A stretch of 64,000 bases of DNA. Source: Methanobrevibacter olleyae. GTDB taxonomy: Archaea; Methanobacteriota; Methanobacteria; Methanobacteriales; Methanobacteriaceae. The notes beneath the pieces are model-generated. The model had not been told where the DNA came from and searched no databases. It was given only the letters and a program-made list of their open reading frames with translations. Positions 3,691-62,356 of the stretch are shown here, piece by piece. Location of the stretch: the NCBI RefSeq assembly GCF_900114585.1, contig NZ_FOTL01000001.1, forward strand, positions 1-64,000, written 5' to 3'. The number at the start of each line of letters is the position of its first letter. The stretch's first letter is position 1. A program made the position numbers and the translations under genes.

Positions 3691-4043
3691 TATAACACCT
3701 AAAATTTTTTAAAAATACATTATCAAAATAAATCTCTTTATAGAAATATAAAATTTTTCAATAATTCTTTTTAAAAGAGAATCTAAAAAATCAATTCTTA
3801 ATATAATTAATAAAATTTAATATCAATTAAATTTAATATTATATAAAATTTAATATTAATTAAATTTAATATTAATAAAACTTAATATTAATTAAATTTA
3901 ATATTAATTAATAATATACTATTATTAATTTGTCTTAATTAATAATATTTTAATATACTATTATTAGTTTCTCTTAATTAATAATATTTTTTAAAATTTA
4001 GAAAAATATTCATATAAAATAATCAATAGCTAAAGGTTTTAAA
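3691..4043. other. A/T-only divergent spacer with palindromic repeats
   Basis: This 353-base region separates hypD (minus) from the nonulosonate operon (plus). From about 3795 to 3990 it consists of repeated, self-complementary AATTTAATATTAATTAA-type blocks that could form many alternative hairpins. Promoters for both flanking operons must lie here. The A/T background is too uniform to call a single TATA box. Confidence 0.5.
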
Positions 4044-57399: not shown

Positions 57400-58878
57400 T
57401 TATTTAATTGTACCTTGTGCTTGCATTCTTCTCTTAAGAATACATCTTTCTCCTTGGTTTCCGCCAAGAGGATTCTTTTGAGTTCCCATTGAATTCATAC
57501 AACGAGCCATAATTGCAGAACCTAAAGCTAATCCATCCTCTACAAATACAACCCCATCGAATTTATCTTGAGCATATTCTAAAATAAGTTCTGGTTTTTT
57601 ACCTGTAATACCTGCTCTGCCAGTAACCCCTAAAACAGAACCGTCAAGAATAAGATTCTCTTCAAAAGCAACATCAAGAATTCTGTAAACAATATTTGCA
57701 CTTACATGGTCCATTGTTGCAAGCAATGTAGGAATTCCATCCTCTTCATAAATTTTAGCACCAATTTCTTCTAATTTATCTAATCCATCAGCATTTGTTC
57801 CAACATCAGAACCGATTAAACAAGTACCTGCTGCTTTAGCACCTGCAGCATCTAAAGGAACAGTACCAAACCTATCAATTCCTTCTGGGACCTTACAAAT
57901 ATTAATAAGTTCATGTACTTCCTGAGCATATTTTTTAGCCTTTTCCTGATGTTTTTTACCATCTGCTTTTTTAAGTAACTTTGAATCAAATATATCTAAT
58001 GCCGCACCATTCTTTTGATCAATCTGATTAGAACCTTTAGCTAATGAATCGGAAATTACTCCTGCTAAACCTAAGAAGTTACCAACAGTACTTGCATAAG
58101 GTTCCTCTTTATTTACAATACGTCCTGCAAGAGTAGAACCAAAGTCTAAAGATACGCAAGGGTTTCTATAGTCTACATCAGTCCATTTAGCACCTAATTT
58201 AATACCTGCAGTAACAAGTTCCCCTTCCATTTCATTAGCTACAACTTCTTTACCTTTTGGAGGAACTACACTTACTACTGCTCCATCAAACATAACATTA
58301 TCTAATAAAGTGTATTTTTGAAGCCTTTTAGGAAGGTGTGCAGTAGACATAGCTGGTGCCATTTTTTTATGAGAAATACCTGCATCAAGGCAACCATCAG
58401 CAAGAGCTTTAATTAATTCTCCCACTTCCTTGGTTGTAGCAAAGCCGGCAGTTACACCAGTAGACCTTACTACAAAGTCTAAATCTTCATCCATATCAAC
58501 ATGTGCCTTTTTAAGTGATTCTAAAACTGTATCTTTAATCATATCAGCAACAGATTCTTTAGAAAGTTCTACACCCCAAACAGTTTTACCAAATACCACT
58601 TCTCCTGCTTTAGGTTTTCTAACATCTCTTGTCATTTTAACAGTTTTATTAATTAAATAAGATTGACTGTTATTTAAATTTGTAGCCATAATAACACATT
58701 TGGTAGTGGTATTTCCTAATTCTACAGAAGCTGTTACATAATACTCATCAGGTTTAGCAACAACAGTACCCGGACCTTGAGGCCTGCTACCTGCTTTTAA
58801 AATACTTAAATCCCTTGATCTGCTTTCAGCAACAATTGGCTTAGGCCCTTTCTTAAAAAATTTATCTAAAAAAGACAT
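57400..58878 (-). CDS. Methanogenesis marker protein 14
   Basis: 492 residues. It matches the marker 14 family by length and by VTASVELGNTTTKCVIMAT, FVVRSTGVTAGFATTKEVGE, GISHKKMAPAMSTAHLPK and TCLIGSDVGTNADGLD. The SVELGNTTTK segment resembles the first phosphate-binding loop of actin/Hsp70-type ATPases (seen in sequence; function inferred). The family is restricted to methanogens and related archaea and has no proven role. GGGGATT precedes the ATG. It lies downstream of the second mtrH after an 837-base spacer. Confidence 0.82.
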   Translation of the reverse strand: MSFLDKFFKKGPKPIVAESRSRDLSILKAGSRPQGPGTVVAKPDEYYVTASVELGNTTTKCVIMATNLNNSQSYLINKTVKMTRDVRKPKAGEVVFGKTVWGVELSKESVADMIKDTVLESLKKAHVDMDEDLDFVVRSTGVTAGFATTKEVGELIKALADGCLDAGISHKKMAPAMSTAHLPKRLQKYTLLDNVMFDGAVVSVVPPKGKEVVANEMEGELVTAGIKLGAKWTDVDYRNPCVSLDFGSTLAGRIVNKEEPYASTVGNFLGLAGVISDSLAKGSNQIDQKNGAALDIFDSKLLKKADGKKHQEKAKKYAQEVHELINICKVPEGIDRFGTVPLDAAGAKAAGTCLIGSDVGTNADGLDKLEEIGAKIYEEDGIPTLLATMDHVSANIVYRILDVAFEENLILDGSVLGVTGRAGITGKKPELILEYAQDKFDGVVFVEDGLALGSAIMARCMNSMGTQKNPLGGNQGERCILKRRMQAQGTIK

Positions 58879-59286
58879 ATAAAATCCCCATAATCTTTAT
58901 ATAGTATATACTATTTTCATCAAATAATATAAATTTTGTTAAATCTTTTTTGAAATACCAAGAAATTAAAAAAAGAGCTTGTAAAAAATTCTAGGCTTAA
59001 AAATAAAAATTTATTATTTATTAATAATTAAAAACAAATTGAAGCCTATAACATTTTACATTAGCATAAACTAAATTAAGGATATATAGTTAAATTATTA
59101 TCTAAATTATATTTTTATAATTTTTATCCATTATTGTTGAAACTAATAATAAATTAATCTTTGAAATTAATAATAAATTAATCTTTGAAACTAATAATAA
59201 ATTAACCCTTATAAAAATATAATTATAGTTTTTAGCAAACAATTTATATAAAAAGAAGAATTAAAAATGAATTTTATATAAATTTA

Positions 59287-59374
59287 ATGAAAAAACTGAA
59301 TCTTAGACAAATTTAATACAAGTTAAAAACATGAAAAAACTGAATCTTAGACAAATTTAATAGAAGCTAAAAAC
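59287..59374. repeat. 44-base direct repeat
   Basis: TGAAAAAACTGAATCTTAGA and the following 24 bases occur twice back to back, with only two or three differences near the right end of each copy. Confidence 0.8.
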
Positions 59375-59455
59375 TATAAAGATTTATTTATTTTCAATAC
59401 ATATATCTAATTGTTAGTTCCAAATATACAAATATGTCAAGTTTAATAAGAACTA

Positions 59456-59518
59456 AGCAAACATAGATGAAGCATAAGAATTAAATGAATTTTCATTTAA
59501 TTCTTATTCGTGTTTGCT
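59456..59518. other. Hairpin A: long two-part inverted repeat
   Basis: The inner stem TAAGAATTAAATGAA (59475-59489) pairs perfectly with TTCATTTAATTCTTA (59492-59506). An outer stem AGCAAACA (59456-59463) pairs with TGTTTGCT (59511-59518), separated by an asymmetric internal loop of 11 and 4 bases. Confidence 0.85.
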
Positions 59519-59548
59519 AAAATAATATTCTGGAGAAAATATTATTTT
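59519..59548. other. Hairpin B
   Basis: AAAATAATATT (59519-59529) pairs perfectly with AATATTATTTT (59538-59548) over the 8-base loop CTGGAGAA. It abuts hairpin A without a gap. Confidence 0.85.
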
Positions 59549-59567
59549 ATTGTTTAGATTTGATAAA

Positions 59568-59603
59568 TTAAACATATTTTTAGCTGAATTTAAATATGTT
59601 TAA
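59568..59603. other. Hairpin C
   Basis: TTAAACATATTT (59568-59579) pairs perfectly with AAATATGTTTAA (59592-59603) around a 12-base loop. Confidence 0.85.
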
Positions 59604-59620
59604 AAAATTTTTAGGAAAAT

Positions 59621-59650
59621 TAGTTAAAGTAATTTAAATTACTTTAACTA
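59621..59650. terminator. Hairpin D, 30-base perfect palindrome; possible mtrH2 terminator
   Basis: TAGTTAAAGTAATTT (59621-59635) is followed at once by its exact reverse complement (59636-59650). It lies 65 bases after the stop of the second mtrH, the first hairpin a transcript of that gene would meet. A short T-rich stretch follows on the minus strand. Confidence 0.55.
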
Positions 59651-59715
59651 TACAATATTATTCAAATTTGATGAAGAACAATATTATAACTTGAAACAGC
59701 CTTAAAATATGGATA

Positions 59716-60654
59716 TTACAATAGTTTATTAAATGGATGATTTTCTACTGCCGTAGTCCCTATATCTCTTACTGCTTCAGCAATAAACATATCAGTTTGA
59801 GCTACAGCAGGAAATGCAATTTTAGCATTATCTATAGGGCCAAAAAGGACGAAATCTCCACCACACATTACTTGAACAATATTAGCGCCAATATCACAAA
59901 CAGTATATGCAGTTTTATTACCCTCTTTTTTATAATCTCTTAACCAATCCCATGCAGAAGGTACATTATGAATACCAGAACCAAGAGGGTATCCCCATTT
60001 AGCTTTTTCTGCAAAAGAAGTCCTAGCTGCCACACCAGCACCTTGACCAAGAGGAGTTACAGCAGTATCCATCAAATACTTATCAATACCACAATCACTA
60101 GCAACTTCTAACAAACCTTTTTCATAAGATCCATCATCTCCATCTTCCCACATAGCTAATTTACCATTTATAGATGGATTCATTGGATTAAATCCTAAAA
60201 TAATGGAAGCGGATATAGAAGTTTCTGCAAGAGCATCTAATTCTGCTTTATCTGCAGACATGTTAATAGAATTATATATTCCTCTATCATACAATCCTAT
60301 TTCATCAACATATTGAGCTCCTGCAACTCTAGCATCAGCAGAGGTTGAGTCTATAAGAAAAGGATAATCACTAATTTCTCCTACAAATTCTAAATACTTA
60401 ATGATAGCTTCTTCAGTTTGTCCAAAAACCTGTATTAAACATGGATTACCTGTAATATCAGCCATTTCTTCCATATCTTTAATTAAAGATTCTGCACGAT
60501 CTTTATCAAAAACACCAGCCAATTCATCATCAATGATATTATGCCCACCATAGAAAATAGTACCTGCTAGAACAGTAGGATATTCACCAGGCTGACCACC
60601 TATTTTTACACCAGCAATATCAAAAACTTCTTGTTCTTTGTCAAATTTAAACAT
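59716..60654 (-). CDS. mtrH2: Second MtrH (tetrahydromethanopterin methyltransferase subunit H paralogue)
   Basis: About 312 residues, co-linear over its full length with MtrH at 61424-62356 and identical in a majority of positions by eye (for example DIAGVK.GGQPGEYPTVLAG, CDIG.NIVQ, GGDFVLFGPI). Changes from MtrH include GSYEKGLLEVASDC and VAQTDMFIAEAVRD. ATG 60654 is chosen over TTG 60669, since that TTG overlaps the GAGGT site. It is separated from the mtr operon by a terminator and 769 bases, so it is expressed separately. No MtrA or corrinoid-protein paralogue is next to it; its partner is unknown. Confidence 0.9.
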   Translation of the reverse strand: MFKFDKEQEVFDIAGVKIGGQPGEYPTVLAGTIFYGGHNIIDDELAGVFDKDRAESLIKDMEEMADITGNPCLIQVFGQTEEAIIKYLEFVGEISDYPFLIDSTSADARVAGAQYVDEIGLYDRGIYNSINMSADKAELDALAETSISASIILGFNPMNPSINGKLAMWEDGDDGSYEKGLLEVASDCGIDKYLMDTAVTPLGQGAGVAARTSFAEKAKWGYPLGSGIHNVPSAWDWLRDYKKEGNKTAYTVCDIGANIVQVMCGGDFVLFGPIDNAKIAFPAVAQTDMFIAEAVRDIGTTAVENHPFNKLL

Positions 60655-61423
60655 ATCATTTAACCTCAAAAATTAATTTGATAATTTCTAATGTTTTATA
60701 ATTTCTTCTTTAACAATTGAATTATTCAATTATGATTTATTAATTAAAAATATTATTTTATTTATTGATATAAAAAATTTATAAAATAAATTTTATAAAA
60801 TAAATTTTATAAAAAATAAATTTTAATTTATTAACAATCATTATAAATATAAATTTAAAAAAATTATAAAGTTTATTTTAAAAAATATAAAATAAAATTG
60901 ATTTGTTCAAAAAAGATAAAGGTTAATCAATAAAAGTTTTAAAAAAAAAGAGATTTTTAAAAAACAAAATATCAATTATTCTAAAAAAATGAACAAAAAA
61001 ATTTAAATTATGGTTTAATTTAATTTATCAAATTAAAATAAAGCTTATTTTTAAAATAAATTAGAAAATATCATATAAATATTGATTGAAGTTATATATA
61101 AAGTTTATGTTAAAAATAAAAACTAATAATCAAGAATTAAAATTATAAAAAACAGCAATATAGTAATAAAAAATAAAAATAAAGTATTACTAATCTTAAT
61201 AAATAAGATTATAGAATTTAAATAGAGATATAAAAATTAGAAAAATGTCTAATCAGCGAAATGAAAAATTTCAAAAAATTTCGATTAAATTTTTTTTAAA
61301 TTTTGAAAAAATAGTAAAAATAAGAAAATTAATAAAAATAGTAGATTAAATAAATTTTTGAAAATTATAAAAAATTTAAAATAGATTAGATGATAAAAAT
61401 CATCTAATCTTGAACCCTTTCAA
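60655..61423. other. Spacer between mtrH and the second mtrH
   Basis: 769 bases of A/T-rich DNA starting with the mtr terminator on the right. Around 60730-60900 are repeated AAAATAAATTTTATAAAATA-type blocks. The promoter for the second mtrH should lie at about 60700-60800. No gene is seen. Confidence 0.45.
61383..61410 (-). terminator. mtr operon terminator
   Basis: AGATTAGATGAT (61383-61394) and ATCATCTAATCT (61399-61410) form a perfect 12-bp stem with an AAAA loop on the plus strand (TTTT on the transcript strand). On the minus strand ATTTTAAATTTTTT follows. It is 13 bases after the mtrH stop. Confidence 0.85.
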
Positions 61424-62356
61424 TTATAATAATTTGAAAAGTGGGTGTTCTTCAATAGGTTCGGTACCAATATCTTTTGCTGCTTCAGCAATCATGATAT
61501 CAGCCATACCACATGCAGGGAATGCAAGTCTTGAGTTTTCGATAGGACCGAAAAGAACGAAGTCTCCACCAGCCATTTGCTGTACGATATTAGAACCTAT
61601 GTCACAAACAGGCCATGCCTCTGTGTGTTCTTTTTTATATTGTCTTAACCAATCCCATGCAGAAGGTACGTTGTGAATACCGGAACCTACAGGGTATCCC
61701 CATTTAGCTTTTACAGCATAGGAAGTTCTTACTGCAGGACCTGCACCTTGACCTAAAGGAGTTACTGCTACATCCATCCATGGTTTTGTAATTCCACATC
61801 TTTCTGCCATTTCAAGAATACCTTCATCAATAACACTTCCACCAGATTCCCAGATTTCGAGTTTACCTGCTACACCTGGAGACATTGGGTTGAAACCTAA
61901 GAGAATAGATGCATCAATGTCAGAGTTAGCAACAGCTTCAATCTCAGCAGCTTCAGCTGCCATACTTAAGGAGTTGTATACAGCTCTTTCAGCTAATCCT
62001 ACTTCTTGTACATATTCTACACCTGCAATTTTTGCAGCTGCAGCAGTTGAGTCAATGAGGAAAGGTTTGTCACAGACATCTCCTACAAATTCTAAGTATT
62101 TAACCATAGCATCTGCAGTAGCACCGAAAGTTTGTACAACACAAGGGTTTCCAGTAACATCAGACATTTCTTCCATTGTTCTAATTAATCCTTCAGCAGC
62201 GTCTTTATCAAAGTCACCTGCTTTTTCATCACTAATAATTTTGTGTCCGCCATAGAAAATAGTTCCTGCTAAAACGGTAGGGTATTCTCCAGGTTGTCCT
62301 CCCATTTTAACTCCAGCTATATCAACGACGAGTTGTTCTTTATCAAATCTAAACAT
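61424..62356 (-). CDS. mtrH: Tetrahydromethanopterin S-methyltransferase subunit H
   Basis: 310 residues. It shows VVDIAGVKMGGQPGEYPTVL, NPCVVQTFGAT, FLIDST, GFNPMSPG and AWDWLRQYKKEH, all typical of MtrH. MtrH transfers the methyl group from methyl-tetrahydromethanopterin to the Co(I) cobamide of MtrA; it is the soluble subunit of the Na+-pumping membrane complex. It is the last gene of the mtrEDCBAFGH operon and lies 15 bases after mtrG. Ribosome binding site GGAGGAT. Confidence 0.96.
   Translation of the reverse strand: MFRFDKEQLVVDIAGVKMGGQPGEYPTVLAGTIFYGGHKIISDEKAGDFDKDAAEGLIRTMEEMSDVTGNPCVVQTFGATADAMVKYLEFVGDVCDKPFLIDSTAAAAKIAGVEYVQEVGLAERAVYNSLSMAAEAAEIEAVANSDIDASILLGFNPMSPGVAGKLEIWESGGSVIDEGILEMAERCGITKPWMDVAVTPLGQGAGPAVRTSYAVKAKWGYPVGSGIHNVPSAWDWLRQYKKEHTEAWPVCDIGSNIVQQMAGGDFVLFGPIENSRLAFPACGMADIMIAEAAKDIGTEPIEEHPLFKLL

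Follow-up and report, generated by a model that had tools for sequence, protein, structure and literature searches.

A hairpin array behind a second mtrH gene of Methanobrevibacter carries predicted antisense arms to mtrH start regions

Introduction

The Mtr complex is described as central to energy conservation in methanogens (PMC12774963). In the window analyzed here, the first 64,000 nucleotides of a Methanobrevibacter olleyae contig (NZ_FOTL01000001.1; genome G000), mtrH1 of the mtr operon is accompanied by a second gene, mtrH2, which is followed by a run of perfect hairpins. What could such a run be for? The initial annotation, made from the window alone, had judged that four stems are more than termination needs, and we concur: a single hairpin with a T run does not account for the feature, which consists of four to five separate hairpins with conserved open linkers rather than a lone terminator of the intrinsic type. 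The elements of the locus are as follows.

57400-58878, minus strand: methanogenesis marker 14 gene
59414-59420/59450-59456, minus strand: possible sixth stem, TTAGTTC/GAACTAA, seen in the alignment and present in relative G007 too
59456..59518, minus strand: hairpin H1, with inner stem 59474-59489/59492-59507, outer stem 59456-59463/59511-59518 and an asymmetric bulge
59518..59549, minus strand: hairpin H2, 12 bp perfect stem, loop UUCUCCAG
59551..59567, minus strand: arm B, the open linker between H3 and H2, UUUAUCAAAUCUAAACA, antisense of the mtrH1 start
59568..59603, minus strand: hairpin H3, 12 bp perfect stem
59621..59650, minus strand: hairpin H4, 30-nt palindrome with a 13-bp stem if 4 nt are left for the loop
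59651..59688, minus strand only: hairpin H5, with two G-U pairs, pairs read by eye
59658..59681, minus strand: arm A, UUGUUCUUCAUCAAAUUUGAAUAA, inside H5, an imperfect complement of the first eight codons of both mtrH1 and mtrH2
59716..60654, minus strand: mtrH2, the host gene, ATG at 60654 (TIGR01114)
60631..60654, minus strand: first eight codons of mtrH2, which arm A is predicted to address
61424..62356, minus strand: mtrH1 of the mtr operon (TIGR01114)
62339..62355, minus strand: start region of mtrH1, to which arm B is exactly complementary

Results

The array is a set of perfect, separate stems

All four hairpins of the initial annotation are present. Counted as perfect Watson-Crick stems with loops of 3-20, H1 has an inner stem of 15 bp (59474-59507) and an outer stem of 8 bp; the others measure 12 bp (not 11, as had been given), 12 bp and, for the palindrome, 13 bp. 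The 251 bases from 59450 to 59700 hold four stems of at least 11 bp. Across 300 dinucleotide shuffles, such stems averaged 0.05 and never numbered more than 1. RNA folding gave z-scores of -7.1 for the plus strand (59440-59670) and -8.1 for the minus strand (59440-59720), with 0/200 shuffles as good in each case. The concern that shuffled sequence might yield equally strong stem sets is thus not borne out. In the region 59414..59456, a longer imperfect version of the possible sixth stem was also found.

In a 464-kb sample of the genome, consisting of the window and 20 stretches of 20 kb (approximately 22% of the genome), only the array packs at least three separate stems, each 12 bp or longer, into 250 bases; at a threshold of 11 bp, two weaker clusters also appear. 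GC-corrected folding energies of 240-nt windows place the array among the lowest values. Since two other sampled sites fold lower by energy alone, what makes the array unusual is its set of perfect separate stems rather than its folding energy. The statement that no other spacer of the window has more than one such stem was inexact, as positions 3859-3947 carry three overlapping stems composed only of A/T. Other A/T-rich sites, L137 (9380-9860) and L149 (4440-4860), are built of repeated units and have folding energies as low as that of the array. Searches of Rfam returned two matches for the array, both far under their gathering scores, and no match for five loci of the second clade described below.

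The array most likely belongs to the mtrH2 message

The array sits between mtrH2 and the marker 14 gene, and a role as leader of the latter had been considered. This is unlikely: the 72 bases that precede marker 14 (58879-58950), among them a TATA-like stretch, show 90-93% identity in G002, G009 and G011, in which mtrH1 stands directly before marker 14 and both mtrH2 and the array are absent; the spacer upstream is not kept in this manner. Because this block is retained in relatives without mtrH2 or the array, a separate promoter for marker 14 is probable, and the array would belong to the mtrH2 message. The G-U pairs in H5 and among the inner pairs of H2 exist on the minus strand only, which agrees with the mtrH2 message; one altered pair in H4 fits the plus strand better. 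We infer that transcription of mtrH2 runs on into the array, which most likely forms the 3' UTR of its mRNA.

The spacer also holds, at 58975-59060, a dispersed element of approximately 90 nt with imperfect inverted ends (GTAAAA..TTTAGGCTTAAA / TTTAAGCCTATAAAATTTTAC), similar to a miniature transposable element, with about a dozen copies in the examined parts of the genome and copies in G004 too. Tandem repeats, two units of 44 bp and three of 24 bp, lie in the same spacer at 59287-59374 and 59137-59205, respectively. A hairpin, GATTAGATGAT..ATCATCTAATC, is found after mtrH1 at 61383-61410, and relatives of both clades have comparable hairpins behind mtrH1.

Open stretches of the array are complementary to mtrH starts

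The initial annotation did not include one feature: where the array is open between hairpins, it is antisense to both the mtrH1 and the mtrH2 start. Arm B (UUUAUCAAAUCUAAACA), read as its reverse complement, equals the mtrH1 sequence that starts at base two of the AUG and ends with codon 6. Exact copies of this 17-mer in the 2.12-Mb genome are limited to two, one in the array and one at the mtrH1 start; up to two mismatches yield five sites, those with two mismatches being the mtrH2 start and two other places. When 433 gene-start regions of the 464-kb sample were ranked by duplex energy, mtrH1 came first for arm B (-20.0 kcal/mol, the next at -14.4 kcal/mol) and mtrH2 30th. Arm A, whose imperfect antisense of codons 1-8 fits both starts, ranked mtrH1 first (-21.8), mtrH2 second (-20.7) and another start third (-19.5 kcal/mol). 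In the predicted ensemble, arm B is unpaired at 0.88, within the top 1% of 17-mers (0.60 in G007), and the arm A loop is open at 0.99 (0.81 in G007).

In the window genome only, the H2 loop can in addition pair with the Shine-Dalgarno region of mtrH1; with this loop included, total pairing to mtrH1 amounts to -29.4 kcal/mol, and 0/500 shuffles were as low. For the whole 3' UTR compared to dinucleotide shuffles, G000 gave z = -5.5 to mtrH1 (0/300) and z = -3.5 to mtrH2 (1/300). The corresponding values for G007 were -4.6 for mtrH1 (0/300) and -1.0 for mtrH2 (50/300), the latter no better than shuffles. Complementarity of the 3' UTR to its own start region beyond chance is thus seen in G000 and in the mean of the second clade, and not in G007 taken alone.

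Two further segments were evaluated as antisense candidates. Neither segment C, in the H1 bulge, nor segment D, in the H3 loop, preferred mtrH starts, and segment C had stronger matches to other starts. A plus-strand peptide running through arm B and H3, noticed by eye, was dropped, as a stop codon breaks its frame in G007.

The hairpins and arm B are conserved in G007

In a DNA search of 138 genomes of the family, the only other long match to the array was in G007 (CAMODR010000008.1, an uncultured Methanobrevibacter), at 86% identity over 247/251 query bases; the rest among the matches listed were short and A/T-rich. Gene order and array in G007 are as in the window genome, and the match lies inside a single alignment that starts at 59378 and continues to the end of the window. 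Across six nearby genes, the two genomes agree at 59-76% of four-fold sites (mtrH2 61%, marker 14 60%), and the rest of the array spacer is 55% identical over ungapped columns. In G004 and L124, mtrH2 is present and the array absent.

A hand alignment of H1-H4 showed three pairs that are changed on both sides yet still paired, and one U.G that became U-A; four pairs were lost on both sides and four were broken, three of these at stem ends. When the same changes were placed at random, as many bases stayed paired in 3/5,000 simulations. The H1 inner stem is unchanged, H3 carries a compensatory change from U-A to C-G, and H4 one from A-U to C-G, plus one broken pair. H5 is poorly kept, and the H2 loop, with its anti-Shine-Dalgarno sequence, is not kept. 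Arm B is identical. The comparison supports a structured RNA in the mtrH2 3' region that is under selection with compensatory changes; the absence of conservation or covariation in relatives, which would have spoken against the initial annotation, is not what G007 shows.

A covariance model of H2 and H1, run on the 138 genomes, found G000, G007 and four weak matches (E 0.03-0.9). The best of the weak matches, as well as weak ones in the window and in L080, lie at mtrG/mtrH1 junctions, because the H3/H2 linker is the antisense of the mtrH1 start.

Counterpart elements in a second clade

A counterpart motif was found behind mtrH2-type genes in 30 other genomes of a second clade; these 30 loci were chosen because they carry the element. 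The named carriers are nearly all Methanobrevibacter, and mtrH2 stands alone in both of the loci inspected (L063 and L097). In the paired set, G000 and G007 aside, the motif lies 47-113 bases past the stop codon. The thirty aligned 3' UTRs share a common order. First comes a segment similar to the antisense of the gene's own start (TTATCAAA, CATTT, AACCTC), then, in most of them, TTTGTTC; a variable hairpin and an extended AATCT-N-AA follow. In the G+C-rich hairpin that closes the series, eight of nine pairs show compensatory changes. A simple hairpin stands in place of the element behind L054, L055, L056, L058, L070, L114 and L115, which are operon-type mtrH by sequence (a set that leaves out L197).

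Arm A of the second clade pairs with the start of its own mtrH2, beginning at -14 to -16, at the Shine-Dalgarno sequence, in the same register in 30/30 genomes, the stretches of L069 and L061 having been shortened for this comparison. Its energy averaged -16.7 with its own mtrH2 versus -15.9 with mismatched species (7/20,000), as compared to -12.5 with one mtrH1 start and -7.5 for shuffles. In dinucleotide shuffles of the UTRs of 15 genomes of this clade, mean z-scores were -2.76 to mtrH1 and -2.09 to the own mtrH2, and +0.84 for the mtrH1 3' UTRs that served as control. Arm B is slightly more open than the remaining UTR (0.64 versus 0.51; 29/30 sequences, L068 having been missed). In G055 and G058, mtrH1 and mtrH2 lie 46 kb and 110 kb apart, so that arm B would have to act in trans.

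Other 3' UTRs showed less. The 3' UTR of G004 carries no antisense signal (z = -0.6 to the mtrH1 of G000, -1.1 to its own mtrH2), L124 has an mtrH2 without such a signal, and the 3' UTRs of two stand-alone mtrH genes of smithii type were negative as well. One control went against expectation: the 3' UTR of mtrH1 in the window genome was nominally low (15/500 shuffles). Those of mtrH3 in G055 and G116 are borderline, with 9-29/500 shuffles as low. In these third mtrH genes (L173 and L174), the 3' UTR carries ATTTAAACATT followed by AACCTA and may pair with the mtrH2 start; here 29 and 24 of 500 shuffles, respectively, were as low, which is again borderline. A further mtrH, L119, lies on a contig whose title names a Bacteroidales bacterium MAG; the contig is probably archaeal and mis-binned.

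Arm B follows changes in its target

Twenty-one genomes combine an mtrH2-type 3' UTR with a full start of mtrH1 or an operon-type mtrH. In 18 of them, the longest exact antisense run measures 10-17 nt and lies over the first codons of mtrH1, starting at codon 2 in three (G058, G099 and G098); the exceptions are G086, whose element mismatches, and the smithii-type G061 and G056. A permutation test on 19 genomes (both smithii-type ones left out; target -12 to +15) gave a mean run of 12.8 for matched versus 10.2 for mismatched species (0/20,000 permutations), and a duplex energy of -19.4 versus -17.0 (3/20,000). The 16 genomes of the second clade alone gave 7/20,000 for the run and 5/20,000 for the energy. 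Shuffled 3' UTRs had a mean run of 6.8 and reached 12 in 0.16% of cases, and nine other gene starts had mean runs of 5.8-6.8. Complementarity to the start of another mRNA is thus conserved, with covariation.

The changes can be followed by eye. Where mtrH1 begins with ATGTTA (codon 2 TTA), the element has the matching UAA in 5/5 genomes, and where it begins with ATGTTT (codon 2 TTT), it has AAA in 12/14; of the other two, G114 could pair by G-U and G086 mismatches. In G014, codon 3 of mtrH is AAA instead of AGA, and the element has UUU; in G114 the leader TTCGTACTT faces the element AAGTACGAA, and in G094 TATTT goes with AAATA. The codon-2 pattern requires four changes on the mtrH2 tree and two to four on the mtrH1 tree. 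Independent replication of the covariation is limited, as well-supported branches yield only one independent pair of covarying codon-2 changes. The mtrH1 proteins of G073 and G074 are identical, whereas their mtrH2 differ, and one of these bins may be mixed. Six genomes with the element CUUAAC (G107, G092, G100, G097, G087 and G106) lack the mtrH1 start in their assemblies; if the pairing idea is true, their mtrH1 should begin with ATGTTAAGA.

Discussion

The hairpins, their conservation, the complementarity and the target-matched covariation of arm B between species were computed directly. With a probability of roughly two in three, we read the array as a dual antisense 3' UTR of mtrH2 that limits the translation of mtrH1 and of mtrH2 itself. 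RNA pairing of the arms with the mtrH starts is well supported by the sequence comparisons, and we infer that it takes place in the cell. The hairpins would provide a scaffold and a 3' end that keep the two antisense stretches accessible, and may also end or protect the message. Arm B would pair with the first codons of mtrH1 or, in some species, with its leader or Shine-Dalgarno region; arm A would pair in cis with the start region of mtrH2 and, in the window genome, with that of mtrH1 as well. The mtrH2 message would in this manner cover the ribosome landing site, lowering translation of the paralogue and limiting its own. Repression is the favored outcome because the pairing site covers the start codon.

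Three other explanations have to be weighed against this one. The hairpins could simply terminate, protect or process the mtrH2 mRNA, the antisense match having no role. Their strength and conservation would suit such a structured 3' end, as would the G+C-rich hairpin with compensatory changes that ends the second-clade elements and the hairpins found 3' of mtrH1. We nevertheless consider it unlikely, as it leaves the exact 17-nt match to mtrH1, its rank among 433 starts and the target-matched covariation unexplained, and archaeal termination has been reported to proceed via U-tracts and aCPSF1 (PMC8716108, PMC7515710). It is still less probable, indeed highly improbable, that the arms are functionless remnants of small inverted duplications of mtrH starts. 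Both arms do resemble the same few mtrH codons, and relatives such as G014 have three mtrH genes in tandem or nearby, but the similarity ends after 17-24 nt, G007 retains arm B without change at a four-fold-site identity of 59-76%, and the match is kept in 18/21 genomes and tracks changes in the target.

The pairing could also be real and act in another mode, through a free small RNA, through the mtrH1 mRNA acting on the mtrH2 mRNA as a sponge or by decay, or by stimulating translation. The same complementarity fits these modes, and sRNA162 is a known archaeal RNA with two target domains and processing (PMC3510493); a site over the start codon, however, favors repression, and we regard such modes as very unlikely.

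Beyond repression by a dual antisense 3' UTR, a wider proposal, to which we would give slightly less than even odds, is that the mtrH2 mRNA has two functions, encoding an alternative MtrH and using its 3' UTR to silence both itself in cis and, in trans, the mtrH of the mtr operon. Methanobrevibacter would then rely on RNA pairing to swap one subunit of its sodium-pumping methyltransferase, and the element would represent a new regulatory RNA family co-evolving with the start codons of its targets. A conserved RNA element linking two MtrH paralogues would give rumen and gut methanogens a point at which methane formation can be controlled.

Comparison with known systems

Among the matches listed from the open-licence literature on mtrH, Methanobrevibacter and UTRs or small RNAs, we found no report of a paralogue being addressed by a 3' UTR that changes in step with the paralogue's start codon; among those listed for structured RNAs in general, also open-licence, nothing was on point. 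Pairing of a 3' UTR with a start region and a two-domain archaeal antisense RNA are themselves already known (PMC3868564, PMC3510493). In haloarchaea, the control of translation is directed by 3' UTRs acting jointly with the 5' UTR (PMC2636863); unlike what we propose for mtrH2, antisense pairing and a paralogue as target are not described in the abstract of that work. The 3' UTR of icaR in Staphylococcus aureus carries a motif that pairs with its own Shine-Dalgarno region and hinders initiation (PMC3868564). As reported there, a single short motif addresses only its own mRNA, whereas the mtrH2 array, archaeal and known here from sequence, has two arms, one of them for the paralogue, and scaffold hairpins. 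sRNA162 of Methanosarcina mazei masks a ribosome binding site with a single-stranded linker, and its second domain addresses a cis-encoded mRNA (PMC3510493). It is described as a separate small RNA with other targets, whereas the arms reported here lie behind a coding gene and address mtrH genes, and would present a case of a 3' UTR that silences a paralogue in archaea.
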